From: Amycolatopsis sp. 195334CR
Lineage (GTDB): Bacteria; Actinomycetota; Actinomycetes; Mycobacteriales; Pseudonocardiaceae
NCBI RefSeq assembly: GCF_017309385.1
Contig: NZ_JAFJMJ010000001.1
Span: forward strand, 372,001-436,000
Direction of reading: 5' to 3'
Length of the DNA: 64,000 nt
The translations under genes were made by a program, and so were the position numbers. Positions 36,905 to 53,134 of the stretch are shown here, piece after piece (position 1 is the first letter of the stretch; each line of letters starts with the position of its first letter). Under the pieces are notes generated by a model. It saw only the letters and a list, made by a program, of their open reading frames with translations. It was not told the DNA's origin and did no database searches.

Positions 36905-39900
36905 TCACGGTTTCCGATAGGGACGCGTGCCACCGGTTTCCGCGTTGTGCTCGGTGACCTTGATGCCCTGCTCCTCCAGCTTCGGGTACTCGATCTTGTC
37001 GAAGATGTTGTCCGGCCTGCGGTACGGGTAGATGTCCCCGTTCGGGTTCGGGATGCCGGTGCTGGTCTTGTCGCCCGGCTTGTCCGGGAACACCACGTGG
37101 GTGTCCTCTTTGGAGTTCTTCGCGAAGGTCTCCGACGCGTAGTCCCACTTCTCGCTGACCAGCTTCTTCTGGTCGAGGTTGGAACTGCCGTGGTCACCGT
37201 GCGACCAGAACCCCTGGTTCGGGTCGTTCATCTTCGACGGCGGCACCCAGTCGGGCATCTTCAGCTTGTTGTCCGCGATGAGCCCTTCCAGGGTGTTGCC
37301 GCCGTGTTCCTTGGCGATCTGGTTCGCCTTGAACTCGATCGAGCCGAGATACGGGTCGTCGCCGTTCGGGTTGTGCTGCTTGTACCCACCGGACCAGAAG
37401 AAGTGCTTGTCGGCGTTCATCATCTTGTCCAGCTCCGGCTTGAACTTCTGGAACTCCTCCGGCGTCATGCGCAGCACGTCGACCCCGAGGTCGGTCCGCT
37501 TCGGCGGTGGCGGTTTGAGGTCGGGGTGCTGGTCGAAGTCGTCCGGCCGGGGGCGCTTCGGCGTCTCCGGTCCGCCGGTCTTGCCGCAGGAAGGCACCAG
37601 CCCGAGCGGGTCGCCGACGAGCAGCGGCTCGGCGACGTACTGCACCGGGTTGGGCGCGGCGGCCAGGCCGAGCGGGTCCTGGCTGAGGTACCGCGCGGTT
37701 TCCGGGTCGTAGTAGCGGAAGACGTTGTAGCTCAGCCCGGTTTCCTCGTCGCGGTACTGGCCGGGGAAGGCCAGCGGCATCGCTTCGGACCGCGTGCCGG
37801 CGGCACCCCAGAAGCTGCCGCGGTCCTGCCACACCACCGCGCCCCGCTCGTCGAGCAGTTCGGTCGGCGCACCGGCAGGCGAGGTGATCACGCTGCGGAA
37901 GCTGCCCGGATCGTCGGAGCCGCTGCGCTCGACCTGCACGAGCGGGCGGCTGTCCCCGGGGTGGCGCTCCCAGGTCAGGATCCTGGTCGCGCCGTCGGCG
38001 TCCGTCCGCACCCGTTCCACCAGGTCGAAACCGCTCCACAGGAACCGCACGTCCTCGGCGAGTTCGGGCTGGCCGTCCTCGCCGGTGATCCAGCGCCGCT
38101 TGGCGAACCGCCTGCCGAGCGGGTCGTAGTGGTAGGTCCAGCGCGTGCCGTCGGGCGTGGTCGCGCCGCGCAGCCGGTCGAGCTGGTCCCAGGTGTAGGT
38201 CCAGGAGCGTTCGCCGTCCGGGCCGGTGCGGTGGCGCCCGGTGACCCGGCCCTGCCCGTCGCCGGTGTAGCGGGTGGAGCCCGCCGAGAGCAGCGCGTTG
38301 CCGCGGTGGGTGCGTTGTCCCGGCAGGACCGGCGAGGCGGCCGAGGTGATGCGCCCGGCGGAGTCGTGGGTGAACCGCTCCACCCCGGCCGGGCCGTGTG
38401 CCTCGCTGATGCGGCCCGCCTGGTCGAACGAGAGCCGCCACGGCCGCGCGGCGTCGTCGACCGCGGCGAGCCTGCCGTCGGGGCGGTAGCCGTAGGTGCG
38501 CTGCCCGACCCCGGAGATCTCTTCCGCGGCGAGCCGGTCCTCGGCGTCGAACCGCCGCGTGAGCACCACTTCGCCGTCTACGCTGCGGACGACCTCGCGA
38601 GCGGCGTGGTCGTAGGCGAACCCGACCTCGTGGCCGCCGATCCGCAGCGAGCGCGGCAGGCCGTGCTCGTCGAAGCTCCACTCACTGTCCACACCGGACG
38701 AAGTCAGGCGGCGGATCCCGGTGTCGTCGTAGTCCCAGCACACGCCCAGCCCGTTGATCGTCTCGGTGACGACCCGGCCGCGACCGTCCCGGATGATCTC
38801 CAGGCGCGACTCGGGGTTCTCGGCGACGACCAGGTGGCCCTGCTCGTCGTAGGAGTAGCGGGTGACCTCCTCGGTGGTGCGCCGGGCCACGACGTTGCCG
38901 AGCGGGTCGTAGTCGAACTCGGTGGGCTGGCCGAGCCCGTTGGTCATGCGCCGCATCTGCCCGGCCGCATCGTAGGCGTAGGTGAGGCGGCGGCCGTCGA
39001 AGTCGGTCTCCTCGACCAGCCTGCCCGCGGCGTCGTAGGTGTAGCGCCAGGTCAGGCCCTGCGGATTGGTCACCGAGGTCGGCCGCAGCTCACCGTCGTA
39101 GGTGTAGGTCGTGCGCGCGCCCGCGGTGTCGATGTCCTCCAGCACCAGGCCGAACGGCCCGTACACGCGGCGGCGGACCCCGCCCGCCGCGTCGCGGTAC
39201 TCGACCACCTGGCCTTCCGCGTCGTGCACCCACGCCTGCCGGTCGCCGTGCGGGCCGACCCGCCAGGCACGCCGTCCCTGCGCCGTCCAGCCCAGCCGGG
39301 TCTCGCCGCCGGAGGCGGTGTACACCAGCTGGGGCCTGCCGAACAGGTCCCGGCGGCCGGGGCGCGCCGCCGCGTCCGTCACCTGCTCGTCGGCCATCGG
39401 GTCGGGCGCGGCGGTGGGGCCGGTAGAGGTCGACGGCGTTCCTGGCCGGGGAAGGGCGACCGCGGCACCGGAGGCGAGCACCGAGCCGTCCGCCCGGACG
39501 ACCGCGACCAGTTCCCCGTGCTCGTACTCGTACCGGGTCTCGCGCCCGATCTCGTCCACTTCGGACAGGAGCAGGTCGTACCGGCTCCAGCTGTACCGGC
39601 GGGTGCCGCCCAGCGGGTCGATCCGCTCGACCAGCTGGCCCGCCTCGTTCATCCGGTAGGTCCAGGTGTGGCCGAGCGCGTCGGTGTGCCGGGTGACGCC
39701 GGGCTCGTAGGCGAAGGTCGAGTTGTAGTACCCGTTCGCGCCCGCGGTCCGGACGCACCGGCCGGACTGGTCGTAGACGTAGCGGTACCAGGTGCCGTTG
39801 CGGTCCTGCCAGCCGACGAGCCGGTGCTCGAAGTCGTAGTCCAGCGTCATCGGGCGGCCTTCGTAGTCGGCCACCGCGCTGAGCTGCCTCAGCCGGTTGT

Positions 39901-41518
39901 AGCCGAACCGCACCAGTGGTGCCGCGCCGGGCGCGCCGAGCGCCACCACCCGGCCGTCGGCGGCGCTGAACTGGATCTCGGTGCCGTCGTCGCGGCGGAG
40001 CCCGGCGGGCGCGCCGTCCGGCCCGTACCGGAATTCGGTGCGGCTGCCGTACTGCTCGATCGCGGTGAGCGGCACGACGTGACCGGTTCCGGCGAAGTGC
40101 AGTTCGCGCTCGCCCGTCGACAGCCGGTACCCCTCGGGCGTGACGTGCAGCGGGTAGCGGGGGCCTTCCAGCGGCAGCACGGAGGCACCGGCCGGGACCG
40201 GGTACACCAGCACCATGCCGTCCTCGGCGTAGAACCGGACCGCCTCGCGGCCGACCTCCAGCCGCTGGTCCACTGTGGACGCCCAGGACGGGCCGAACCA
40301 CCGGCCGAAGCGGTAACCCGACAGGTGCGTGCGCGACAGCACCAGTTCCCCGGCGTCCCCCGGCAGGACCAGGTCGACCTGCGTCATCAGCACCTCACCG
40401 CGTGCCACGTCCACCGGGTCGGTCACGCAGGTCTTGTTCTGGTCCGGGATCGACCGGTCACGCGCGCCGGGCCCGGTGTCGTTCGGGCGGGGCGGGGTGT
40501 TGTTGCCGCCACCCCTCGGCGTCGGTGTCGGGGTCGGCGTGGGGCTGGGTGTCGGGGTCGGGTTGGGTGTGGGGTCGGGCTTGGGTGCCGGTGGTGGCGG
40601 GGTGCCCGAGGAGCCGTCCGGTTTGGCGCTGCTGCTGGTGGTGTCGCCACCCCCACCGCCGCCGTTGTTGCTTTGCCCGGGTGGCGGGTTGGGGGTGGGC
40701 CCGGAGCTGCTGGGGCTGGTGTCACCACCGCCACCGCGGGTGGTTTCCGGCTTGGGCTGGTTACCGCTCTTGATGTTCTTGAGCGCCTTGGCCGCGTCCC
40801 CGAAGGAGTCGCCGAGCTTCTTGAGCAGCGGGGAGAGCTTGCTCAGCGCCTGGACCAGCTTCTTGGTGATGTCGGCGATCTTCATCGCCGTCTTGGCCAC
40901 CGCGCTGACGACCTGCGGCACCACCCACGCCAGCCCGATGCCCAGGGTGAACAGCACCTGCAACGCCCAGCTGATCATGTGCCCGACCAGCTCGGCGATG
41001 ATGTCGCGCACCAGCGACCGCACCGCCCCGACCACCTCACCCGCGGTACCGATACCGCTGGAGGCCCCCTCGGCCGCGGACTGCGCCCCGGTGATCAACG
41101 TGGCGATATCCGCCCCCCGCGTCCGATACGCATCCCCCGCGGGACCGGTCCAGGACGCGGTGTCCTCCTCGATCATCTTGGCCAGGTCCGCGCTGATCGA
41201 GGACAACTCGGTACCGACGTTCTTCCACGTCTCCGAGTGCGCCTTGATCTCATCCGGGTTCCCGGTCAGCGCGTCGAGGGCGTCCGAGAGCGGTCCACAG
41301 TGCTCGATCAGCCACCCCACCCCGGCGGCGAGGATCGACCCGAAGGGATCCATCGCCATGCCCAGGGCGTCGAGCGCGGTCCCGGCCGCGCCCATCACGC
41401 CGGCGGCCCAGTCACCACTCTCGATCGCCTTGCTGGTCTCGTTGATCGACTCCAGGATCGGGACACCGGAAATCGCCGTGGTCGAGTCCTCGACCTCCGC
41501 GACCAAGGGATTAGCCAT
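36905..41518 (-). CDS. WXG-RHS polymorphic toxin, NADase-like C-terminal domain suspected
   Basis: 1537 residues. Residues 1-170 are a WXG100-like module with the turn SWTGPAGDAYRTR (W123). A hydrophobic helical stretch runs about 170-225. A Gly/Pro/Thr-rich linker spans 251-362. DUF6531 starts near 365 (DPVDVARGEVLMTQVDLVLP). YD/RHS repeats then run to the core end RYYDPETARYLSQDPLGL. The last 230 residues (from about 1308) are the variable toxin: FFWSGGY (about 1371), GGNTLEGLI (1406), SEKWDYASETFAK (1455) and IEYPKLEEQGIKV (1509). That order resembles RHS-tip domains with an ADP-ribosyl-cyclase/NADase-like pattern; this is inference. The WXG part predicts type VII export. No immunity gene follows. 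Confidence 0.85.
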   Translation of the reverse strand: MANPLVAEVEDSTTAISGVPILESINETSKAIESGDWAAGVMGAAGTALDALGMAMDPFGSILAAGVGWLIEHCGPLSDALDALTGNPDEIKAHSETWKNVGTELSSISADLAKMIEEDTASWTGPAGDAYRTRGADIATLITGAQSAAEGASSGIGTAGEVVGAVRSLVRDIIAELVGHMISWALQVLFTLGIGLAWVVPQVVSAVAKTAMKIADITKKLVQALSKLSPLLKKLGDSFGDAAKALKNIKSGNQPKPETTRGGGGDTSPSSSGPTPNPPPGQSNNGGGGGGDTTSSSAKPDGSSGTPPPPAPKPDPTPNPTPTPSPTPTPTPTPRGGGNNTPPRPNDTGPGARDRSIPDQNKTCVTDPVDVARGEVLMTQVDLVLPGDAGELVLSRTHLSGYRFGRWFGPSWASTVDQRLEVGREAVRFYAEDGMVLVYPVPAGASVLPLEGPRYPLHVTPEGYRLSTGERELHFAGTGHVVPLTAIEQYGSRTEFRYGPDGAPAGLRRDDGTEIQFSAADGRVVALGAPGAAPLVRFGYNRLRQLSAVADYEGRPMTLDYDFEHRLVGWQDRNGTWYRYVYDQSGRCVRTAGANGYYNSTFAYEPGVTRHTDALGHTWTYRMNEAGQLVERIDPLGGTRRYSWSRYDLLLSEVDEIGRETRYEYEHGELVAVVRADGSVLASGAAVALPRPGTPSTSTGPTAAPDPMADEQVTDAAARPGRRDLFGRPQLVYTASGGETRLGWTAQGRRAWRVGPHGDRQAWVHDAEGQVVEYRDAAGGVRRRVYGPFGLVLEDIDTAGARTTYTYDGELRPTSVTNPQGLTWRYTYDAAGRLVEETDFDGRRLTYAYDAAGQMRRMTNGLGQPTEFDYDPLGNVVARRTTEEVTRYSYDEQGHLVVAENPESRLEIIRDGRGRVVTETINGLGVCWDYDDTGIRRLTSSGVDSEWSFDEHGLPRSLRIGGHEVGFAYDHAAREVVRSVDGEVVLTRRFDAEDRLAAEEISGVGQRTYGYRPDGRLAAVDDAARPWRLSFDQAGRISEAHGPAGVERFTHDSAGRITSAASPVLPGQRTHRGNALLSAGSTRYTGDGQGRVTGRHRTGPDGERSWTYTWDQLDRLRGATTPDGTRWTYHYDPLGRRFAKRRWITGEDGQPELAEDVRFLWSGFDLVERVRTDADGATRILTWERHPGDSRPLVQVERSGSDDPGSFRSVITSPAGAPTELLDERGAVVWQDRGSFWGAAGTRSEAMPLAFPGQYRDEETGLSYNVFRYYDPETARYLSQDPLGLAAAPNPVQYVAEPLLVGDPLGLVPSCGKTGGPETPKRPRPDDFDQHPDLKPPPPKRTDLGVDVLRMTPEEFQKFKPELDKMMNADKHFFWSGGYKQHNPNGDDPYLGSIEFKANQIAKEHGGNTLEGLIADNKLKMPDWVPPSKMNDPNQGFWSHGDHGSSNLDQKKLVSEKWDYASETFAKNSKEDTHVVFPDKPGDKTSTGIPNPNGDIYPYRRPDNIFDKIEYPKLEEQGIKVTEHNAETGGTRPYRKP

Positions 41519-41741: not shown

Positions 41742-42623
41742 ATGACTTCCACAGCGGTGATCGACGTCGAACGGCTGAACCTGAAGTACGGGGACTTCCA
41801 CGCGGTGAAGGACCTGACCTTCCAGGTCCACCGGGGTGAGTTCTACGCCCTGCTGGGCACCAACGGGGCGGGCAAGACCTCGACGCTGGAGGTCATCGAA
41901 GGCCACCGGACCCCGACCTCGGGCACCGTGCGGGTGCTGGGGCAGAGCCCGCGGAACCGCGCGGCGGTGCGGCCGAAGATGGGCATCATGCTGCAGGAGA
42001 GCGGGTTCACCCCGGACCTGACGGTGCGGGAATCGGTCCGGCTGATCGGTTCGCTGACCCAGCGGGAGGACAGCGTGGACCGCGTTCTGGCCATTGTGGA
42101 CCTGACGCGGAAGGCGGGCACCAAGGTGTCGCAGCTCTCCGGCGGCGAGAAGCGGCGGCTGGACTTCGCCACCGCGATCTGGGGCACGCCGGAGCTGGTC
42201 TTCCTGGACGAGCCGACCACCGGGCTGGACATCCAGTCCAGGGACGCGTTGTGGGACGCGGTGGACCGGCTCCGCGAGGACGGCTCCACCATCGTGCTGA
42301 CCACGCACTACCTGGAGGAGGCCCAGCAGCGCGCGGACCGGATCGGCCTGATGCACCAGGGCACCTTCCACCAGGAGGGCACGGTCGCGGAGCTGACCAG
42401 GACGCTGCCCGCGGTGATCCAGTTCGCGCTGCCGCCCTCGGCACCCGCGCTGCCGCTGGCCGGCCGCCGCGAGCACGGCGGGAAGTTCCTGATCGAGACC
42501 CACCAGTTGCAGAAGGACCTGCTGGTGCTGTTGCGCTGGGCCCAGGACAACGCGGTGGAGCTGCGCGAACTGGAGGCGGGCCCGACCCGGCTCGACGACG
42601 TCTTCCGCGCCATCAACCGCTGA
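41742..42623 (+). CDS. ABC transporter ATPase, probable lanthipeptide self-protection (LanF-like)
   Basis: 293 residues from the ATG at 41742. Walker A is LLGTNGAGKTSTLEV, the Q-loop LQESGF, the signature LSGGEKRRLDFA, Walker B ELVFLDEPTTGLD and the switch His TTHYLEEA. A C-terminal extension of about 80 residues (ELRELEAGPTRLDDVFRAIN) is typical of DrrA/CcmA-type exporters. With the permease 28 bases downstream it forms an ABC-2 exporter. It stands beside the regulator and precursors of the lanthipeptide cluster, so it may pump the product from the membrane. A general drug exporter is the alternative. Confidence 0.9.
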   Translation: MTSTAVIDVERLNLKYGDFHAVKDLTFQVHRGEFYALLGTNGAGKTSTLEVIEGHRTPTSGTVRVLGQSPRNRAAVRPKMGIMLQESGFTPDLTVRESVRLIGSLTQREDSVDRVLAIVDLTRKAGTKVSQLSGGEKRRLDFATAIWGTPELVFLDEPTTGLDIQSRDALWDAVDRLREDGSTIVLTTHYLEEAQQRADRIGLMHQGTFHQEGTVAELTRTLPAVIQFALPPSAPALPLAGRREHGGKFLIETHQLQKDLLVLLRWAQDNAVELRELEAGPTRLDDVFRAINR

Positions 42624-42651
42624 CTCCCCCACGAGAAGAGGAATCGTCACC

Positions 42652-43371
42652 ATGTTGTCCATCGCCCGCGGCGAGCTGATCCAGATCTTCCGCAACCGGT
42701 CGGTGCTGATCACCAGTTTCGTGATCCCGATCGCGGTCTGCGCCTTCTTCATCAACCAGCACGAGACCTTCGCCCAGCTCGCCTCGCTCGGGTACATCGC
42801 GGGGATCGTGATGTTCACCGTGTGCGCGTTCGGCCTGTACACGAGCGTCGTGACCACGCTGGCTTCGCGACGGCAGAACCTGTTCCTCAAGCGGTTGCGC
42901 TCCACGGCCGCCGCCGACCGCTCGATCCTGGTCGGCCTGGTGCTGCCCGCCACGGTGATCGCGGTGGTCCAGATCGTCGCGATCCTGACCGTGTTCGGCG
43001 TGGTCGCCGGGACGCCGGACAACGTCGGCCTGCTGGCGCTGGCGGTGGTGACCACCATCGCGATGATGATCGGCCTCGGCCTGGCCACCGCCGGGCTGAC
43101 CAACTCGCCCGAGCACGCCCAGATCACCACGCTCCCGGTCACGCTCGGCGTGATCGCGGTGGCCAGTTGGGTGGGCATCTCCGGGACCGGGGAACTGACG
43201 TTGCTCAAGCGCCTGCTCCCCGGCGGCTCGGCCACCGAACTGGTGATGAACGCGTGGAACGGCGGTGTCCCGCTCGGTGACTCGCTCCTCCTGCTCGCCC
43301 CGACCCTGGCCTGGGTGGTCGTCGCGGTGTCGCTGGCCTCGCGGCTCTTCCGCTGGGAACCGCGCCGCTGA
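42652..43371 (+). CDS. ABC-2 type permease (LanE/G-like)
   Basis: 239 residues with six predicted membrane helices. The start SIARGELIQIFRNRSVLITS is the amphipathic elbow helix of ABC-2 permeases. LLPGGSATELVMNAWNGG near the end lies in the external re-entrant region. It pairs with the ATPase gene upstream. Only one permease gene is present, so a homodimer is expected. Its stop is 22 bases from that of the convergent SARP-type regulator. Confidence 0.88.
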   Translation: MLSIARGELIQIFRNRSVLITSFVIPIAVCAFFINQHETFAQLASLGYIAGIVMFTVCAFGLYTSVVTTLASRRQNLFLKRLRSTAAADRSILVGLVLPATVIAVVQIVAILTVFGVVAGTPDNVGLLALAVVTTIAMMIGLGLATAGLTNSPEHAQITTLPVTLGVIAVASWVGISGTGELTLLKRLLPGGSATELVMNAWNGGVPLGDSLLLLAPTLAWVVVAVSLASRLFRWEPRR

Positions 43372-43393: not shown

Positions 43394-46123
43394 TCACCGC
43401 GCGATGCGGAGGCCGTCCGGTCGCGGCACGCGCAGCAGTTCCTCGATCTCGGCCGCCGCCGGGTCCTGCCGTTGGAGCGCGAGTTCGTGTGCCCGCCGCC
43501 AGGCCTCCACCGCCGAATCGGGTTCCCCGGCGGCGACCAGCTGGTGCCCGAGCGCCACCCGCAGCACCACCGCCCGGGCAGTGGCCTGCGTGGCTTCGGT
43601 GGCCTCCACCGCGTCCCGGTAGGCCGCGACCGCCGAAGCGTGGTCCCCGCTGGCGACGTGCACCAGCGCGATCGTCTCCAACCCGGCGACCAGCCGGGAA
43701 AGTTCGCCGAGGGCGCGGAACTCGTCGGCCGCGCGCTCCGCGGCGACGAGTGCCTCGGCGTAGCGGCCGAGGCCGGTGAGGGCGTCGGCGTGGTTGTTCA
43801 GCGCCATCGCCGCGGTGATCAGGTCCTGCTGAGCGAAGCTGAGCTGCCTGGACCGGTCCGCGGTCTCGGCCGCCTCGCCGTAGCGTCCGGCGTGGTTGTA
43901 GGTCGAGCTGAGGTTGAGCAGGGAAGTCGCCTGCTGGCGCGTGTCACCCAGCTTCTCGAAGATGCGCAGGGCGCGAAGGCCCAGCGCGAGATCGTCGTCG
44001 GCGCCGCGGAAAACGCTGTACGCGATCTGCAATCCGTTGCAACACCTGGCTTCCAGGTACTCGTCGCCCAGTTCGACCGCGTAGGCGAGCGCGGCTTCGT
44101 AGGCGTCCATCAGGTGCTGGTAGCTGCCGCGCAGGTGGAAGTACTGCCAGCACAACTGCGCCAGCACGATCGCCGGCCGCCGGCCGCCGTGGCCCCCGAG
44201 CACCAGCGCCAGCAGGGTGTCGCGTTCGGTGTCGCACCACTCCACCGCCGCCCGGCGATCGGCGAACTCCAGCGGGGTGACCCCCTCGACCGGCGGGCCC
44301 ATCGGCAGGCGGTGCGGGACACCGGTGAGGTGGGCATGCGCCTGCTCCGCGGTCCGCACGTACCAGTCGACGAGCCGGGTCTCCGCCGCCTGCTCCTCAG
44401 CCGGTTCGCGGTCGAGTTCGCGGGCGAACTCCCGGAGGAGGTCGTGCAGTTCGTACCGGTCGCCGCCGCGTTGTTCGAGCATGCTGGCGGAAACCAGCTG
44501 CCGCAGCACCGAAGGCGCCGAGGCCGGCGGGACCCCGGCGAGCGCGGCGACGGCTTCGGCGGCGATGTCGGTGCCGGGGAACACCCCGAGCAGCCGGAAC
44601 ACCCGCGCGGCTTCCGGGGAGAGCGCCCGGTAGGACCAGTCGAACACCGCCCGCAGATCGGTGGACACGTCGTCGTCGAGCGACAGCGCCGCCAACCGGC
44701 TCGGGCGCGCACGCAGTTCCCCGACCAGCCGGCGCAGCGACCACTCCGGCCGCAGCACGGCCTGTTCCGCGGCGAGGCGGACGGCCAGCGGCAGCCGGGC
44801 GCACAGCTCGACCAGTTCCAGCGCCGCTTCCCGTTCCCGGCCGACGCGGCCCGCCCCGAGCACGCTGCCCAGCAGGATCAGCGCTTCCGGCGGGGAAAGC
44901 AGGTCCAGCGCCAGTAGTGCGGCGCCTTCGCGGACGGACAGGCTGCGCAACTGGCCGCGGCTGGTGATCAGCACGAGCGAGTCGCTGCCGGGCAGCAGCG
45001 GGCGGACCTGCTCGGCGTCCTTGGCGTTGTCCAGCAGCACCAGCACCCGCTGGCCGTCGAGCTGGCTCCGCAGCAGCGCCGCGCGCTCCGCGAGGTCGTG
45101 CGGGATCCGGTCGGTGGCCACGCCCAGCGCGCGGAGCAGCGATTCGAGTGCGTCGTGCGGGCTCAGCGGTGAACCGGGGCCGTACCCGCGCAGGTTCAGG
45201 TACAGCTGGCCGTCCGGGAACAGGTGCTTGACCCGGTGCGCCCAGTGCACGGCCAGCGTGGTCTTGCCGATCCCGCCCGCGCCGTCGATCGCGGAGATCA
45301 CGATGGGCCCGGCGCCGGTGACGTCGAGGTCGCCGAGCAGGGCGCTCAACGACGCCAGTGCCGCTTCACGGCCGACGAAGCCGCGGATGTCCGGTGGCAG
45401 TTGCCGCGGGGTGGTCTGCCTCGGCGCCCCGGTGACCGCGCCCGCGAGGATGTCCTGGTGGAGGCCGCGCAGCTCCGGTCCGGGGTCGGCGCCCAGCGCG
45501 TCGGCGAGCCGTCGCCGGACGGTTTCGTAGTGGTCGAGCGCCTCGGCCTGGCGGCCACCACGCGCCAGCGCGAGCAGGTACTGGCCGTGCAGCCGTTCGT
45601 TGAAGGGGTGGTCCTGGCTCAGCTCGGCGATCCCGGGCAGGACGGCGGTGTGCCCGCCGAGGTCCAGCTGGTGGTCGTGGTGGTCGAGCCGGGCCGCGAA
45701 GTGCTCGTCCACCAGCGCGCGGCGGGCGTCGTCGAGCCAGGCCGTGTGCAGCCCGGCGAACGGCTCCCCCCGCCACAGCGCGAACGCCTTCTCGTGCTGC
45801 CCGGCCGCGACCGCGGTCCGGTACCGGTGCAGGTCGACCTGCTCCGGCGCGACGACCAGCCGGTAGCCGAGCGCGCCGCGCTCGATGACGTCGGCGCCGA
45901 GCACCTGGCGCAACCTGGACAGGTAGCTCCGGAGCGTGCCCGCCGCCCCGAACGGCGGTTCGCCGCCCCAGACGCGTTCGACCAGCTGGTCCAGCGTCAC
46001 CGAGCGGTTCGCGTCGACCAGCAGCGCGGCGAGCACGCACTGGCGCCGCGCCGGGCCCAGCGCCACCACCTGGCCGTCCACCCTGGCGACGAGATCCCCG
46101 AGCACCTCGAATTCGACCGTCAT
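43394..46123 (-). CDS. SARP-type regulator with NB-ARC and TPR domains (AfsR/DnrI-like)
   Basis: 909 residues from the ATG at 46123, with GGGGAG 5 bases upstream; a start at 46168 is less likely. The winged helix (residues 1-95, TLRSYLSRLRQVLGADVIER) and BTAD (about 100-245) are followed by an NB-ARC ATPase with P-loop DGAGGIGKTTLA near residue 280 and VLVLLDNAKDAEQ. C-terminal TPR helices from about 600 include GLETIALVHVASGDHASAVA. Such proteins activate biosynthetic clusters by binding direct repeats. It is divergent from the precursor genes and convergent with the ABC pair, making it the probable cluster activator. Confidence 0.93.
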   Translation of the reverse strand: MTVEFEVLGDLVARVDGQVVALGPARRQCVLAALLVDANRSVTLDQLVERVWGGEPPFGAAGTLRSYLSRLRQVLGADVIERGALGYRLVVAPEQVDLHRYRTAVAAGQHEKAFALWRGEPFAGLHTAWLDDARRALVDEHFAARLDHHDHQLDLGGHTAVLPGIAELSQDHPFNERLHGQYLLALARGGRQAEALDHYETVRRRLADALGADPGPELRGLHQDILAGAVTGAPRQTTPRQLPPDIRGFVGREAALASLSALLGDLDVTGAGPIVISAIDGAGGIGKTTLAVHWAHRVKHLFPDGQLYLNLRGYGPGSPLSPHDALESLLRALGVATDRIPHDLAERAALLRSQLDGQRVLVLLDNAKDAEQVRPLLPGSDSLVLITSRGQLRSLSVREGAALLALDLLSPPEALILLGSVLGAGRVGREREAALELVELCARLPLAVRLAAEQAVLRPEWSLRRLVGELRARPSRLAALSLDDDVSTDLRAVFDWSYRALSPEAARVFRLLGVFPGTDIAAEAVAALAGVPPASAPSVLRQLVSASMLEQRGGDRYELHDLLREFARELDREPAEEQAAETRLVDWYVRTAEQAHAHLTGVPHRLPMGPPVEGVTPLEFADRRAAVEWCDTERDTLLALVLGGHGGRRPAIVLAQLCWQYFHLRGSYQHLMDAYEAALAYAVELGDEYLEARCCNGLQIAYSVFRGADDDLALGLRALRIFEKLGDTRQQATSLLNLSSTYNHAGRYGEAAETADRSRQLSFAQQDLITAAMALNNHADALTGLGRYAEALVAAERAADEFRALGELSRLVAGLETIALVHVASGDHASAVAAYRDAVEATEATQATARAVVLRVALGHQLVAAGEPDSAVEAWRRAHELALQRQDPAAAEIEELLRVPRPDGLRIAR

Positions 46124-46233
46124 CCGTCTCCCCGCACTCGCTGCCCTGTATAGCCGCTCGTCGCTCACTCGCTCAAGCTCGCCCGCGCCACCACGCCCTG
46201 ATCAGGCGAAACAACGAAGACGCAAGGTTCGGA

Positions 46234-46388: not shown

Positions 46389-46607
46389 ATGCACGACCTC
46401 GTTCGCACCTGGAAGGACCCCGAGTACCGGAATTCGCTCACCGCGATTCCGGCACATCCGGCAGGCCAGGCAGAACTGACCAAAATGGAATTGGCCGACG
46501 CCACCGCCGCGGTCGGCGGCACCAGCACCGTCGGCCTGTTGTGCGCGACGCTCATCACCATGCGGCCGTGGCCATGCAGTTTCGCGGTTCCCCATCAAGA
46601 AAGGTAG
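46389..46607 (+). CDS. Class II lanthipeptide precursor 1 (mersacidin-type leader)
   Basis: 72 residues with an excellent RBS (AAAGGAGGA, 46377-46385). The leader has LVRTWKDPEYR and AHPAG, as in the mersacidin leader (RSWKDP...NPAG), and ends in a GG site at 43-44. The predicted core is residues 45-72, starting TSTVGLLCATLITMRPWPC, with Cys 52 and 63. It differs from its three neighbours in having only two Cys, no C-terminal Cys and a charged PHQER end, so it may be a degenerate member or form a different ring pattern. Modified by LanM and exported by the C39 transporter of the same operon. Confidence 0.82.
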   Translation: MHDLVRTWKDPEYRNSLTAIPAHPAGQAELTKMELADATAAVGGTSTVGLLCATLITMRPWPCSFAVPHQER

Positions 46608-46613
46608 GCGAAA

Positions 46614-46832
46614 ATGTCGAATACGTTGGTTCGCGCGTGGAAGGACCCCGAATACCGCGAGGGTCTGCCCACCGCCCCGGCACATCCGGCCGGTGTCGCG
46701 GATCCGCAACGCCTCGAGTTGCACGACCTCGGGTTCGCCGGCGGTGCGGCGTTGAGTGGCGTCACGTGCGTCACCAAGACCTCCACCTTCACGATCCCCG
46801 CGTGGTGCGTGTTCTCACTGGCCATCTGCTGA
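46614..46832 (+). CDS. Class II lanthipeptide precursor 2
   Basis: 72 residues. The leader MSNTLVRAWKDPEYREGLPT continues through AHPAG to a GG at 43-44. The core (45-72) starts AALSGVTCVTKTSTFTIPAW and ends CVFSLAIC: Cys at 52, 65 and 72, with about eight Ser/Thr for dehydration. Its C-terminal half matches precursor 4 in the pattern T-x-T-[IL]-P-x2-C-x-F-[ST]-L-x2-C, so these two should share ring topology. It starts 6 bases after the stop of precursor 1. Confidence 0.87.
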   Translation: MSNTLVRAWKDPEYREGLPTAPAHPAGVADPQRLELHDLGFAGGAALSGVTCVTKTSTFTIPAWCVFSLAIC

Positions 46833-46851
46833 CCACAGTAAAGGAAACACC

Positions 46852-47076
46852 GTGAACCAAATCAGAGCCTGGAAGGACCCGGAGTACCGGGATTCCCTGT
46901 CCACCACCGAGCGGGCGGCGCTGGCCGCGAACCCCGCTGGGCCGATCCGGCTGGAGTTCTCCGATCTGGAGGCCGTCCAGGCGGGCACGCCCACCACGGT
47001 GCCGTGCTTCACCATCACCCTCAGCGTCGCCGCCTGCGGTGGCACCAAAGCGGTCGCCAGCATCGGCTGCTGCTGA
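46852..47076 (+). CDS. Class II lanthipeptide precursor 3
   Basis: 74 residues from a GTG with AAAGGAAA upstream. The leader begins MNQIRAWKDPEYRDSLSTTE, contains NPAG exactly as in mersacidin, and ends QAG at 43-45. The core (46-74) starts TPTTVPCFTITLSVAACGGT and closes with GCC. Cys at 52, 62, 73 and 74 with at least six Ser/Thr. The paired C-terminal Cys and mid-core CGG set it apart from precursors 2 and 4. Confidence 0.87.
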   Translation: MNQIRAWKDPEYRDSLSTTERAALAANPAGPIRLEFSDLEAVQAGTPTTVPCFTITLSVAACGGTKAVASIGCC

Positions 47077-47119
47077 ATCAGCGGAAATCCCCGAGTCAAC
47101 TCTGTTCTGAGGAGGAACA

Positions 47120-47347
47120 ATGAACATCGTCCGCGCTTGGAAGGACCCGGAATACCGGGCTCAGCTGGCCGAAGTCCCGACGCATCCGGCGGGGCTCCCG
47201 GAAATGGTCCGGGTCGAGCTGACCGAACTGGACGGAATCGCGGGCGCCGGTACCGAGACGGGTCTTTCGCTCGGGTGCTGCAACTCGTTCAAGACGTTCA
47301 CCACCACCCTGCCGATCATCTGCACCTTCACGCTGTCGGTCTGTTGA
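47120..47347 (+). CDS. Class II lanthipeptide precursor 4
   Basis: 75 residues from the ATG at 47120, behind GAGGAGG (47109-47115), the strongest RBS of the set together with that of precursor 1. The leader (MNIVRAWKDPEYRAQLAEVP, THPAG) ends AGAG at 41-44. The core (45-75) starts TETGLSLGCCNSFKTFTTTL and ends PIICTFTLSVC: Cys at 53, 54, 68 and 75 with about ten Ser/Thr. The C-terminal half matches precursor 2. A hairpin follows before lanM. Confidence 0.88.
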   Translation: MNIVRAWKDPEYRAQLAEVPTHPAGLPEMVRVELTELDGIAGAGTETGLSLGCCNSFKTFTTTLPIICTFTLSVC

Positions 47348-47360
47348 TGCTCGGTTGACG

Positions 47361-47403
47361 GACGGGCCTTCGGTGCGCAGCCGACGCGCGCCGAGGGCCC
47401 GTC
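47361..47403 (+). terminator. Hairpin between the precursors and lanM (attenuator)
   Basis: Arms GACGGGCCTTCGG (47361-47373) and CCGAGGGCCCGTC (47391-47403) pair over 13 positions with one G-U. There is no T-tract, so read-through is expected. It would make the precursors more abundant than the synthetase, or protect the precursor RNA. Confidence 0.65.
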
Positions 47404-47428
47404 CCCCGACGATTCTAGGAGAAACACC

Positions 47429-50400
47429 ATGTTGCTCAGCCCCGAGACGCCGTCGACCGGCGCCGATGACCTGCTCGCGTCCTGGCGGGCCGCACTGGAC
47501 CCCGGTGAGCGCGCGACCGCCGGAGCCGACCACGACCCGGCCGGGCTTCGCCGGCAGACCCGCTGGGCGGAATTGCTCGGCCCGGACGCCGGTGCGGTCG
47601 AAGCGGCGCTGGGCGCTTTGGGCCTGTCCCCGGCCGGACTGGCCGCTCTGCTCGGCACCGTTCCCCAGCCGGTCGAGGCCGGACTGCCCGATTGGGCGGT
47701 GACCACCGACACGGCGCTGTCGCGGTCGCGGACGAGCGAGGGTCCCCACCTCGCCGATCCCGCCAAGCTCGGCCTGCTCCGTCCCGTGGCGGAGGTGATC
47801 CGAGGGTTCCAGGCCGAACTGCACACGCGGCTCGGCGCACTGGTCGCCGACGGACCGGGCGCGCTGGCGAGCCTGCCGGAGTTGCTGGTCCGCGACTGGC
47901 CGCGTGAGGAACTGACGACTCTCGTGGTCCGCACCATGGTGCTGGAACTGAACGTCGCGCGGGTGGAGGAGCGGCTGCGCGGGGAAACCGCCGAGGACCG
48001 CTTCGCGCATTTCATCGGGATGATGGGCAGACCGGAGACACAAGCCGCGCTGTGGCAGGAGTACCCGGTGCTGCTGCGCATGGTGCACGACGAACTGACG
48101 GCGTGGTCGACCTCCCGGCACGAGTTCGTCCAGCGGCTGGTGGCCGATTTCGAGGAGCTCCCGGCACTGCTCCCCGGCCACCCCGAGCCCGGTGCCGTCC
48201 TGGAAGTGGGGTTCGGCGCCGGTGACCGGCACCGTGGGGGCCGCACGGTGGCCATCGTGCGCTTCGACCACGGCCGGGTGGTTTACAAACCGCGTTCGCT
48301 GGCGGTGGACCGCGAGTGGGCGAGCGTGCTGACCTGGTTCGCCGGGCAACGCCCACCGCACGACCTGCGCACCCCCGCCGTGCTGCTCGGCGACGGCTAC
48401 GGGTGGTCCGAGTTCGTCGAGCACGACGGCTGTGCCACCCCGGCCGAGGCGAGCGCGTTCTACTGGCGCACCGGGGCACTGCTCGCCCTGCTCCACGCCT
48501 TCTGCGCGAATGACGTGCACCTGGAGAACTTGATCGCGAACGGCGCGTACCCGGTGCTGATCGACCTGGAGTCCCTCTTCCACGGCGCCTTGCCGGCGCA
48601 CGAAGAGCAGGTGTGGGCCGATCCCGCGGCCGATCTGCTCACCAACGGCGTGCTGAGCATCGGCCTGCTGCCGAACAAGCTGATGGTCCGCGGCATGGAC
48701 GGCCCCCGCGTGCTCGAAACCAGCGCGGTGGCCGCCGACGGCGACGAGCAACCCTCGCTGCTGCCGGTCCCGGTGCCCGAGGCGGTCGGCACCGACGAGA
48801 TGCACTTCGTCGAGCGACACGTCTCCAGCGCGATGACCGCGGGCAACCGGCCCCACCTCGACGGGCGGCAACTCGATCCCTGCGACTACCGCGACGAGGT
48901 CGTCGCCGGGTTTTCCTGGGCGTACCGGGCCATCGTCGCCGACCGGGACAGCTGGTCCGCGGCGGACGGCCTCATCCGCCGGTTCCGGTCCGTCCCGCTC
49001 CGGCACATCGCCCGCGCCACCATGATCTACGTCCGGACGCTGCAAACCGCGCAGCACCCCGACTTCCTGCGCGACGCCATGGACCGCGAACTCGTCTACG
49101 CGAGGCTGGCCGTCGGTGCCGACGGGACCGGCCCGTGGGAACGACTCGTGCCCAGCGAGCTGGCCGACCTGCGGCGCGGTGACGTCCCGTTCTTCGAGGT
49201 CCGCTCCGGCACCCGGCACCTGTGGGACAGCACCGGGACGCTGATCGAGGACTACCTGCCGCAGGCGCCGGAAGAGCACGTGCTGCACCGCATCGCGGGC
49301 CTGGACGAGGACGACCTGGAGCGGCAGCTCAAGCTGATCCACCGCTCGTTCGATTCCCTGCAGGTCCAGCCCGTGCTCGGTGCGCTGAGCGGGATCCTGC
49401 CGCTGGACCGGGAACCGGTGACCGCGGAACAGGCCACCGACGAGGCGGTTCGCCTCGCCGAGGAGCTGTGCGCCGAAGCGATCGGGGCTCCCGGTGAAGC
49501 GGGCTGGGTCGTGCTGAACTTCATCGACGAGCGGGTCTGGCAGGTCGGCAGCGCGCCGATGGACCTGTACTCCGGTGTGCCCGGCATCGGCCTGTTCCTC
49601 TCCGCGGCCGCCGCCGTGACCGGCGCGGGCCACCTCGTCGACTACGCCGAGCGGACCGCCGACCGCGTGGCCGACTACACCCGGCGCACCACCGACCACA
49701 TCCTGCGCGAGGTCGCCAAGAACTCGGCCCTCCGCGACGGGCTGACCCGGCATGCCGACCCCGGCGTGTTCGGCCCGGCCGGCTCGTTGATCTACTACCT
49801 CAGCCACGCCGGGGCCTGGCTGGAACGGGCGGATCTGCTCGACGCCGCCGAGCACGGGCTCGACCTGCTTCACCGGCACCTGGCCCACGACCAGAAGCTC
49901 GACGTGATCGGTGGTGGCGCCGGGGCGATACTGGCCGCGCTGGCTCTGCACCGGGTGCGCCCGGCCGGCGGTGCGCTGGCGGTGGCCGAAGCGGCCGCCG
50001 AAAGCCTGCTCGCCCGGCAGACCACCGACGGCGGCTGGCCGTCCCCGCTGGGCCCGCGACCGCTGCTGGGGATGTCCCACGGCGCGAGCGGCATCCTGAG
50101 CGCGCTGACCGCACTACACGCGGCCGCTCCTCGCCCGGAGTACGCCACCGCCATCGCGAATGCCCTGCGCTACGAGCACGGCCTGTTCGACGCGTCCGCG
50201 AGCAACTGGCCTGATCTGCGACCGCTGGACATGGGCGGCAGTGGTGGGTGCATGGTCGCGTGGTGCCACGGTGCACCGGGGGTCGGGTTCAGCAGGCTGG
50301 CGCTGCTCCGTCAGCGTGCCTCCTTCGCCGGGACCGCCGTGGCTCCGCTGCTGGACCAGGCGGCCGCCGATCTCGAGGCCGCCGTCGTGTCCACCGAGGC

Positions 50401-50734
50401 CGCGCACTACCTGCCGGGCGGCGGATTCGGCAGTTCGGGCAACAACTGCCTGTGCCACGGCGATCTCGGGAATCTCGAGTTCCTGTTGGCGGCCGCCCGG
50501 CACGTCGGTGACGTGGACGCCGAGCAGCGGCACCTCCGTGCGGTCCGTGCCCTGTGCGAACGCGCGACCCACTCCGGCTGGGCCACCGGCCAGCTGCCGG
50601 CCGAGGCACTGCCCGGGTTGATGTACGGCCGGGCGGGGATCGGCTACGCCCTGCTTCGCGTCGCCGCACCCGGCCGGGTCCCCTCGCTGCTCGAACTCGA
50701 AGCGCCCCGGTCGGAGCACGTCGATGAACGCTGA
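47429..50734 (+). CDS. lanM: Class II lanthipeptide synthetase LanM
   Basis: 1101 residues; ATG at 47429 with AGGAG 7 bases upstream. The N-terminal dehydratase (DUF4135) has VVYKPRSLAVD and HAFCANDVHLENLIANGAYP...IDLES (around 355-385), which phosphorylates and eliminates Ser/Thr. The C-terminal LanC-like cyclase starts near 720 (LYSGVPGIGLFLSAAA) and keeps its zinc ligands C946 (AWCHGAPG), C1009 and H1010 (NNCLCHGDLGN). All catalytic parts are present, so it should make lanthionine or methyllanthionine rings in all four precursors. It is the only synthetase gene here. Its last 11 bases overlap the next small gene. Confidence 0.96.
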   Translation: MLLSPETPSTGADDLLASWRAALDPGERATAGADHDPAGLRRQTRWAELLGPDAGAVEAALGALGLSPAGLAALLGTVPQPVEAGLPDWAVTTDTALSRSRTSEGPHLADPAKLGLLRPVAEVIRGFQAELHTRLGALVADGPGALASLPELLVRDWPREELTTLVVRTMVLELNVARVEERLRGETAEDRFAHFIGMMGRPETQAALWQEYPVLLRMVHDELTAWSTSRHEFVQRLVADFEELPALLPGHPEPGAVLEVGFGAGDRHRGGRTVAIVRFDHGRVVYKPRSLAVDREWASVLTWFAGQRPPHDLRTPAVLLGDGYGWSEFVEHDGCATPAEASAFYWRTGALLALLHAFCANDVHLENLIANGAYPVLIDLESLFHGALPAHEEQVWADPAADLLTNGVLSIGLLPNKLMVRGMDGPRVLETSAVAADGDEQPSLLPVPVPEAVGTDEMHFVERHVSSAMTAGNRPHLDGRQLDPCDYRDEVVAGFSWAYRAIVADRDSWSAADGLIRRFRSVPLRHIARATMIYVRTLQTAQHPDFLRDAMDRELVYARLAVGADGTGPWERLVPSELADLRRGDVPFFEVRSGTRHLWDSTGTLIEDYLPQAPEEHVLHRIAGLDEDDLERQLKLIHRSFDSLQVQPVLGALSGILPLDREPVTAEQATDEAVRLAEELCAEAIGAPGEAGWVVLNFIDERVWQVGSAPMDLYSGVPGIGLFLSAAAAVTGAGHLVDYAERTADRVADYTRRTTDHILREVAKNSALRDGLTRHADPGVFGPAGSLIYYLSHAGAWLERADLLDAAEHGLDLLHRHLAHDQKLDVIGGGAGAILAALALHRVRPAGGALAVAEAAAESLLARQTTDGGWPSPLGPRPLLGMSHGASGILSALTALHAAAPRPEYATAIANALRYEHGLFDASASNWPDLRPLDMGGSGGCMVAWCHGAPGVGFSRLALLRQRASFAGTAVAPLLDQAAADLEAAVVSTEAAHYLPGGGFGSSGNNCLCHGDLGNLEFLLAAARHVGDVDAEQRHLRAVRALCERATHSGWATGQLPAEALPGLMYGRAGIGYALLRVAAPGRVPSLLELEAPRSEHVDER

Positions 50735-50954
50735 CGAAGGCGCGGCGGCGCTGTTCCGGGCGGAGGCGCTCGAGGCCATGAACCCCCCGCACGAACCGGA
50801 TCGCGTGGAGGACCGGCTGCGGCTGCCCCGGTGGCCGGTCCTCGTTTCGCTGCTCTCGCTGGGGTTGCTGATCACCGGCAGCCTGCTGACGCGCGTTCCC
50901 GTGTCCGGTGTGGACGAACCGCTGCTGTTCGCGATGCTCGGGTGGGGGTCATGA
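50724..50954 (+). CDS. 76-residue membrane protein resembling the anchor of an NHLM/HlyD adaptor
   Basis: The sequence LFRAEALEAMNPPHEPDRVEDR and WPVLVSLLSLGLLITGSLL resembles the first 60 residues of NHLM-type HlyD export adaptors (LFR-x-EALE, a short Pro-rich segment, then one membrane helix). Only the cytoplasmic start and the helix remain; the coiled coil and barrel are missing. It overlaps lanM by 11 bases and the exporter start as ATGA (50951-50954), so translation is coupled. It is either a worn-down adaptor or a small stand-alone subunit of the exporter. Confidence 0.75.
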   Translation: MNADEGAAALFRAEALEAMNPPHEPDRVEDRLRLPRWPVLVSLLSLGLLITGSLLTRVPVSGVDEPLLFAMLGWGS

Positions 50955-53134
50955 GCAGAGCTCCGAAGGTGCCGGTCCTGTTGCAGGACAGCATTGCCGA
51001 ATGCGGACTCGCCTGCCTGGCCATGGTGCTGACCCACCACGGGCAGGCGGTCACCGTGCAGGAACTGCGCGCCGAGGTCGAAGTCGGTCGCGACGGGTTG
51101 TCCGCGGCCACCCTCGGTTCCGCCGCGCAGCACCGCGGCCTGCTGGTCGAGGCCTACCGCGCCGAACCGGACGCGCTCGCCGGACTCGCCGCACCGCTGA
51201 TCCTGCACTGGAAGTTCAGCCACTTCGTGGTGCTCGAACACCTCGACCGCGAGACCGCCGTCATCGTCGACCCCGCCGACGGGCGCCGCAAGCTCGACCG
51301 CGCCGAGTTCGACCGCGCCTTCACCGGCGTCGCACTCGAACTTCGGCCGGGGCCGGACTTCCGGAAGCAGCGGCGGCCACGCCGCGAATCCCTCCGGTTC
51401 CTGCTCGGCTTCCTGCCGAAGACGCCGTCGGTGATCGGTGTGGTCCTGGTCGCCTCGGTGCTGATCAGTCTGCTGGGCCTGGCCCCGGCGCTGGTCACGC
51501 GCTACCTGATCGACGAGGTGGCGGGCAGCGGCTCCGGCAACGCCATGGTGGTCGTCGGCAGCGCGGTATTGGCACTCGTGGCGAGTACCGCGCTGCTCGG
51601 TTATCTGCGCCGGGAGGCACTGCTGCGCCTGCGCAGCCGCATCGACCTTCGCCTGATGACGCGCTTCCTGGACCATCTGTTCCGGTTGCCCTACCCCTAC
51701 TTCCAACTCCGGACCAGCGGCGACATCCTGACCAGGGTGTCCAGCAGCATGATGCTGCGCGAGGCGCTCACCTCCCACACCCTCAGCCTGCTGCTCGACA
51801 GCTGCACGGGACTGCTCTACGTGGCGCTGCTCTGGACGGTGTCCCCGCTCATCGCCGGGATCGTGGCCGGCGCCGGTTTCCTGCACATCCTCGTCGCCGT
51901 CGGGTACGCCCGGCGTGCCCGCGAGGCGAGCAGGCAGGAGATCGCGGCGATGACCATCGCGCAAAGCCAGCTGGTCGAGTCGCTGACCGGGATCGAGTCG
52001 CTCAAGGCCACCGGGAGCGAGCGAACGGCGCTCGACCGCTGGGAAGGGTCCTACCGCACCCACCTCCTGGCCACCCTGCGGCAGGGTTCGCTGACCAACG
52101 CGATGGAGGGCTGCTACGAGGTCATCCGCATCGGCACACCACTGGTCCTGCTCTGGGCCGGGACCTGGCAGGTGCTCGACGGCGACCTCAGCCTCGGCAC
52201 CCTGATCGCGGCGAACTCGCTCGCCGGGATGGCCCTGCTGCCGCTGGGCTCGCTCTCCCAGGTCTACCAGGCGCTGCAGACCCTCGGCGTGCACATCGGC
52301 CGGCTTCGTGACGTGCTCGCCGAGGAACCGGAGCCCAACACCGGTGTCGAACTGACCTCGTTCAGCGGACGCGTCCAGCTCCGGGACGTGTCCTTCCGGC
52401 ACGCGAGGGACGCACCGCCGATCCTCACCGGGATCGACCTGGACATCGAACCAGGGTCCACGGTGGCGATCGTGGGTGCGACCGGCTCCGGCAAGAGCAC
52501 CCTGGCCCGGCTGATCCTCGGCCTCTACCAGCCGACCACCGGCCAGATCCGTGCGGACGGCGTGCCGTTGCCCGAGCTCAACCCGCGATCCCTGCGTTCG
52601 CGGTGCGGTGTCGTGGTGCAGGATCCGGCCTGCTTCAGCGGTGACCTGCTCGACAACATCCGCATCCACCAGCCCGAGGCCGCACTGCCCGACGTCGTGC
52701 GGGCGGCGCAGACCGCTTGCCTGCACGAGGAAATCCAGCACATGCCACTGGGCTACCGGACGACACTGGGCGAACGCGGGCACGGGCTGTCCGGTGGTCA
52801 GCGCCAGCGGCTGGCGATCGCCCGTGCTCTGCTGCCTCGGCCCGCCCTGCTCGTGCTCGACGAAGCCACCAGCCACCTCGACGTGCGCACCGAGGCCAAG
52901 CTCCACGAGAACCTGCGCGAGCTGCGCTGCACCAGTGTCATCGTCGCGCACCGGCTCAGCACCGTTCGCGACGCCGACGTCATCCTGGTGCTGGACAACG
53001 GCCGGATCGCCGAGCGCGGCCGTCACGACGAGTTGCTCGCACTCGGCGGCACCTACACCGACCTGGTCAGGAGGCAACTGCGCGAACCGACCGCATTCGA
53101 CGAAAACCACTCCGCAGAACAGGGAATTCCTTGA
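50951..53134 (+). CDS. lanT: Bifunctional C39 peptidase-ABC exporter LanT
   Basis: 727 residues. The C39 domain has the nucleophile C18 (QDSIAECGLACLAM), H91 (HFVVLEHL) and D107, and cuts after GG/GA/AG leaders. The membrane domain runs about 140-440. The nucleotide domain has Walker A GATGSGKSTLA (about 509), signature LSGGQRQRLAIARAL and Walker B LLVLDEAT. It should remove the four leaders and export the products. It starts on the stop of the 76-residue protein (ATGA). The stop is followed by an 11-codon frame that looks meaningless. Confidence 0.95.
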   Translation: MSRAPKVPVLLQDSIAECGLACLAMVLTHHGQAVTVQELRAEVEVGRDGLSAATLGSAAQHRGLLVEAYRAEPDALAGLAAPLILHWKFSHFVVLEHLDRETAVIVDPADGRRKLDRAEFDRAFTGVALELRPGPDFRKQRRPRRESLRFLLGFLPKTPSVIGVVLVASVLISLLGLAPALVTRYLIDEVAGSGSGNAMVVVGSAVLALVASTALLGYLRREALLRLRSRIDLRLMTRFLDHLFRLPYPYFQLRTSGDILTRVSSSMMLREALTSHTLSLLLDSCTGLLYVALLWTVSPLIAGIVAGAGFLHILVAVGYARRAREASRQEIAAMTIAQSQLVESLTGIESLKATGSERTALDRWEGSYRTHLLATLRQGSLTNAMEGCYEVIRIGTPLVLLWAGTWQVLDGDLSLGTLIAANSLAGMALLPLGSLSQVYQALQTLGVHIGRLRDVLAEEPEPNTGVELTSFSGRVQLRDVSFRHARDAPPILTGIDLDIEPGSTVAIVGATGSGKSTLARLILGLYQPTTGQIRADGVPLPELNPRSLRSRCGVVVQDPACFSGDLLDNIRIHQPEAALPDVVRAAQTACLHEEIQHMPLGYRTTLGERGHGLSGGQRQRLAIARALLPRPALLVLDEATSHLDVRTEAKLHENLRELRCTSVIVAHRLSTVRDADVILVLDNGRIAERGRHDELLALGGTYTDLVRRQLREPTAFDENHSAEQGIP

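Follow-up and report, generated by a model that had tools for sequence, protein, structure and literature searches.

Roseocin of Streptomyces roseosporus is a two-peptide lantibiotic whose peptides, Ros-alpha and Ros-beta, are made by one LanM synthetase, RosM (PMC10027976). A single LanM with two or three precursors has already been published for the roseocin family (PMC10027976). Specifically, type 1 clusters, as in Streptomyces rhizosphaericus, have one LanM and three precursors; the third, LanA2A, is reported to have no core similarity to the other two and is placed near alpha in a tree. The paper does not decide between a second alpha and a member of a three-component system as the role of that third precursor (PMC10027976). 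Two-peptide lantibiotics of the lacticin 3147 type follow the same alpha plus beta principle but use two dedicated LanMs (PMC10027976), whereas the cluster described here has one. The core of mersacidin-type lipid II binders is marked by the motif TxTxEC (PMC7268733).

We analysed a 64,000-nucleotide stretch of Amycolatopsis sp. 195334CR, hereinafter designated the window. Its forward strand carries, at 46389–53134, four precursor genes followed by lanM, a small ORF, and lanT. The precursor genes are P1 (46389–46607, 72 aa, with a GGAGG-like site upstream), P2 (46614–46832, 72 aa), P3 (46852–47076, 74 aa, with a GTG start), and P4 (47120–47347, 75 aa), in agreement with the four consecutive ORFs of 72–75 residues listed in the first-pass annotation. 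By coordinates, the intergenic gaps along P1-P2-P3-P4-lanM are 6, 19, 43, and 81 bases, and the small ORF overlaps lanM by 11 bases and lanT by 4 bases; the genes therefore likely form one operon. Scans for sigma-70 promoters and terminators stayed at chance level, and Rfam at gathering thresholds gave no match in 40–54 kb of the window. The locus is likely to be a roseocin-family class II lantibiotic operon with the type 1 layout (one LanM, three precursors) plus a fourth precursor.

The leaders of all four precursors match the NCBIfam model TIGR03898 (mersacidin/lichenicidin family) at 39.7–50.9 bits (P1, 43.8 bits) against a cut-off of 23.5, and the matched part is the leader, which bears out the common leader blocks seen in the first-pass annotation. 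Its assignment of the precursors to the mersacidin type holds for this leader block, but not for the cores, which belong with roseocin. Mersacidin membership by core was rejected, since TxTxEC left no trace in any of the four translated cores. In Pfam, none of the four precursors has a match at E ≤ 0.1. A whole-genome search with P4 (E ≤ 10) gave ten matches, namely the four cluster precursors and six others, the best of which has E = 0.01 and a stop inside.

Besides the window's own, five genomes have a P2-P3-P4-type set with LanM and LanT, namely those of Amycolatopsis oliviviridis, of three Streptomyces, and of a probable Actinoalloteichus (loci L046, L047 (= L062), L061, L063, and L064). 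The gene order in each is P2-type, beta, alpha, LanM, LanT. The type 1 layout is thus found in all six clusters, each with P2, P3, and P4 types, the third peptide being alpha-related, and one LanM; the window adds a fourth precursor. The beta precursor of the probable Actinoalloteichus genome (G001) is identical to a database peptide, P0012, that is named Actinoalloteichus. LanM was searched for in the family (390 genomes, 145 matched at E ≤ 1e-60; 15 regions examined, ~130 genomes with weaker matches left out), in the class (394 genomes, 8 matched at 1e-120 including the window's own; 8 regions), in the genus of G728 (392 genomes, 11 matched; 9 further regions), and in the family of G426, probably Nocardiopsis (341 genomes, 3 matched at 1e-150; 3 regions). 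A scan of genome contigs gave 13 loci, and 296 genomes searched with a violaceusniger-group beta gave only 3 other loci. Precursors in the relatives' loci were sought by leader patterns, by which divergent leaders can be missed. The putative precursors at the LanM loci L095, L102, L105, L106, and L107 are very short and end in TISYWHCC or TQPFF[ND]CCG; most of them lack the full WKDP leader block.

The only lanM gene of the cluster (47429–50734, +) encodes a class II lanthipeptide synthetase of the CHG type (TIGR03897, 746 bits, cut-off 304; PF13575, PF05147), and the zinc ligands C946, C1009, and H1010 of the full LanM claimed in the first-pass annotation are the residues found. The single C39 exporter placed after it is likewise present: lanT (50951–53134, +) encodes C39 peptidase, ABC_membrane, and ABC_tran domains (PF03412, PF00664, PF00005), with the peptidase motif QDSIAECG. 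A start at 50951 is likelier than one at 50831. In the LanM tree, the six three-precursor clusters group together with an SH-aLRT of 100 (eight rows, L112 and L113 included). The grouping of LanM with RosM varies with the rows, with an SH-aLRT of 99 in a 17-row set and no support (20) in another. At L112 (6780–7314) and L113 (10432–10966), the same-clade LanMs are accompanied by two precursors whose cores have two Cys and do not resemble alpha, beta, or P2. Another LanM-like protein, 33% identical, is encoded outside the window in the same genome near 4.73 Mb (G000:C1:4733432-4735735), so the pairing of the precursors with the cluster LanM rests on linkage. The small ORF (50724–50954, +) encodes 76 aa with a hydrophobic stretch, has no Pfam match, and among nine loci searched is matched in L046 only (44% over 61 aa); it is perhaps a candidate immunity or export helper.

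Neither this ORF nor the stem-loop in the P4-lanM interval (47360–47404, +) was in the first-pass annotation. The stem of the window is 19 bp, with z of −5.5 against 200 dinucleotide shuffles. In each of the six clusters, the interval from the alpha gene to lanM contains an uninterrupted stem of 13–21 bp, G-U pairs allowed (shuffle maxima, 9–12). Stem sequences differ among lineages, although the three Streptomyces stems are alike. No such long stem occurs in the corresponding intervals tested, three from roseocin loci and one from L112, where stems reach 6–7 bp only. Lantibiotic operons are known to contain read-through stems that separate precursor genes from the synthetase gene. No T run follows the window stem, and a function in stabilizing mRNA is therefore no less possible than read-through.

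The cluster resembles that of roseocin in having one CHG-type LanM for unlike cores with a common leader, GCC motifs in alpha and beta, and a C39 exporter (PMC10027976), but it has two more precursors. P4 is a Ros-alpha-like peptide with 4 Cys and 11 Ser/Thr in its core, and P3 is a Ros-beta homologue with 4 Cys and 8 Ser/Thr. The alpha motif of the family is S/TxxxxTxGCC (PMC10027976); P4 has TETGLSLGCC, with Ser at one Thr place. The strict motif is present in three of the six alpha peptides and the form with S/T in all six. GTKAVASIGCC of P3 fits the Ros-beta motif, the leading Gly of which is found in five of the six beta peptides and is Pro in A. oliviviridis. The common pattern [ST]x4[ST]xGCC occurs in 6/6 alpha, 6/6 beta, and 0/6 P2-type peptides, and by chance in 74 of 20000 shuffled P4 cores and 54 of 20000 shuffled P3 cores.

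Alignments were made against the roseocin cores. The residues printed for Ros-alpha, SGVLGTLGCC at 2–11, SGWTVCGLAC at 18–27, Cys13, and Cys33 (PMC10027976), agree with the alpha cores of L092, L100, and L101. P3 aligns with the Ros-beta core with z of 4.3, a score that none of 500 shuffles reaches. P4 aligns with Ros-alpha over the motif only (z 1.6, p 0.076), its tail being unlike that of Ros-alpha, and P2 does not align with it (p 0.69). The likeness between alpha and beta cores, too, exceeds that of shuffles (mean score 31.0, z 6.7, reached by 0/200), and the alpha/beta assignment therefore rests partly on the position of the motif.

P2 is the third, LanA2A-like peptide and, like P4, has counterparts in the five other genomes. 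Its core contains 3 Cys and 8 Ser/Thr and combines an alpha-like tail with no GCC motif. Across genomes, P2-type cores score a mean of 51.0 against alpha cores, compared with 21.6 (sd 1.4) for shuffles (z = 21, reached by 0/200), and a mean of 24.7 against beta cores, which 3 of 200 shuffles reach. The likeness to alpha lies in the C-terminal half, e.g. TFTIPAWCVFSLAIC and TTTLPIICTFTLSVC. The motif T-x-T-[IL]-P-x2-C-x-F-[ST]-L-x2-C, which the first-pass annotation had pointed out in P2 and P4, occurs in its exact form in these two peptides of the window only; a looser form is present in 6/6 alpha, 6/6 P2-type, and 0/6 beta peptides. P2 agrees with the description of the third precursor in type 1 clusters. 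LanA2A, compared here by its description, is reported without core similarity, whereas the P2-type core has alpha's tail; either the third peptide of that paper is more divergent, or the tail went unnoticed (PMC10027976). Neither this kinship of the P2 and alpha tails nor the stem-loop before lanM was found in the available parts of that paper. Among the database matches listed, P0021 combines the GCC motif with a tail like that of P2, and a resemblance to P2 is also seen in P0005 (Streptosporangium roseum), P0009, and P0015. Database precursors comprised 53 sequences from the ~120 of 527 alignment-search matches listed, one coming from a protein search. When P4 and P2 were each used as the query of a protein search, a single match other than the query itself was obtained.

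P1 is the fourth precursor, by which the cluster differs from the type 1 cluster of S. rhizosphaericus as described (PMC10027976). Its core, TSTVGLLCATLITMRPWPCSFAVPHQER, has 2 Cys, 6 Ser/Thr, and a charged tail. It matched none of the cores compared (18 plus seven comparisons), the lowest p values over the 18 being 0.03 for the beta of L046 and 0.04 for the P2-type of A. oliviviridis, both uncorrected. That P1 simply duplicates P2 or P4 is not supported (core p 0.13 against each), nor is its kinship with the two-Cys cores of L112 and L113 (p 0.09–0.41). The precursor tree places P1 weakly beside the P2-type peptides (80/79, open fork, long branch), and its leader is nearest to the alpha leader of L046. 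The leader-pattern search saw no P1-type precursor in the five other three-precursor genomes. The frame, leader, and ribosome-binding site of P1 look intact, and its core may be either new and functional or on the way to being lost.

A SARP/AfsR-like regulator (43394–46168, −; BTAD, Trans_reg_C, NB-ARC, TPR) is divergent from the operon and by position is a candidate for its regulation; it is not common to the relatives' loci, bar one weak match in L050. The ABC pair at 41742–43371 was rejected as shared immunity genes, as its ATPase is 26–30% identical to relatives, mostly to the LanT region, and its permease has no match. No immunity gene common with the relatives was found in nine loci searched. 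Also near the cluster, 36905–41518 (−) encodes a protein of 1537 aa that has RHS repeats and a weakly WXG100-like N-terminal part and that resembles polymorphic competition toxins.

The genes, their order, the motifs, the homologies, and the stem-loops are read directly from the DNA, and from them we infer how all four peptides may be modified, cut, and made to act jointly. The common leader would guide each precursor to the single LanM, which would dehydrate Ser/Thr and close thioether rings. LanT would then cleave after the GG/AG site and export the peptides. For the assumed cut sites, the unmodified cores of P1, P2, P3, and P4 have calculated masses of 3113.56, 2889.45, 2771.34, and 3300.58 Da, respectively, and each water loss would lower these by 18.01 Da. 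P4 (alpha) would use the overlapping rings at its N-terminus to bind the target, and the part of P3 (beta) would be to complete the lytic complex. P2 probably acts as a helper or an alternative arm and not as another independent binder of the target, because alpha's C-terminal ring region is present and the N-terminal motif is missing. P1 would be a lineage-specific core on the same leader. The stem-loop downstream of the alpha gene may determine how much precursor mRNA is made relative to lanM mRNA.

The shared leaders, the short distances between the genes, and the recurrence of the arrangement in five further genomes are best read as one relaxed LanM acting on a set of dissimilar cores. The first-pass annotation is thus partly supported, with the amendment that the four precursors are not equals: one is alpha, one beta, one a conserved third, and P1 is found here only. 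In its widest form, that annotation implied four independent products of one promiscuous LanM. One shared leader with four unlike cores is in keeping with this, as are the other cores of L112 and L113 under the same LanM clade; but we hold it to be improbable, because three of the four precursors form a conserved set with alpha/beta motifs, and the LanM is of the CHG type rather than the CCG type linked with the most promiscuous LanMs (PMC10027976).

It is more plausible, though still not our expectation, that P3 and P4 are the two working peptides and that P2 and P1 are spare or decaying extra copies. P1, with 2 Cys and a charged tail, occurs here only, and the P2-type core is less conserved than beta; yet the P2-type gene is kept in all six clusters, and P1 has the intact features given above. 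Somewhat doubtful, too, is a three-component lantibiotic in which P2 is an obligatory partner whose alpha-like tail extends the membrane complex, with P1 as an optional addition. The P2-type gene accompanies alpha and beta in 6/6 clusters in a fixed order, its tail is kept, and the possibility was raised in PMC10027976 itself. A literature search for three-component lantibiotics found no paper. Against the three-component reading, roseocin works with two peptides, the P2-type core of S. longispororuber is missing one of its three Cys, and among the three Streptomyces the P2-type core varies more than the beta core. Specifically, S. palmae and Streptomyces sp. S.PNR 29 differ by 0 amino-acid-changing and 4 silent differences in beta, 4 and 3 in alpha, and 4.5 and 2.5 in the P2-type core, counts from few sites that are indicative only. 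A speculative extension, which we regard as unlikely, is a three-component lantibiotic built from shared parts: alpha would be a GCC head with a hydrophobic ringed tail, in beta the head motif would lie at the C-terminus, and alpha's tail without the head would make up the third peptide, while one relaxed LanM and leader would leave a slot where new cores such as P1 arise.

Several observations count against the roseocin-family reading: P4 matches Ros-alpha at the motif only and has Ser at a Thr place of the printed motif, alpha and beta cores resemble each other, the tie between LanM and RosM varies with the rows, the third precursor as described in PMC10027976 has no core similarity, no immunity gene shared with the relatives was found, and L112 and L113, with LanMs of the same clade, have two quite different cores. 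The best reading is nevertheless a roseocin-family lantibiotic of alpha and beta in which P2 is a conserved third peptide and P1 a lineage-specific fourth. On this reading, the cluster is a new roseocin-family member with the three-precursor layout and one extra precursor. In P1, a new core is naturally combined with an old leader. With six matched sets and a third peptide that has alpha's tail without its head, the three-component question is directly testable with purified peptides.
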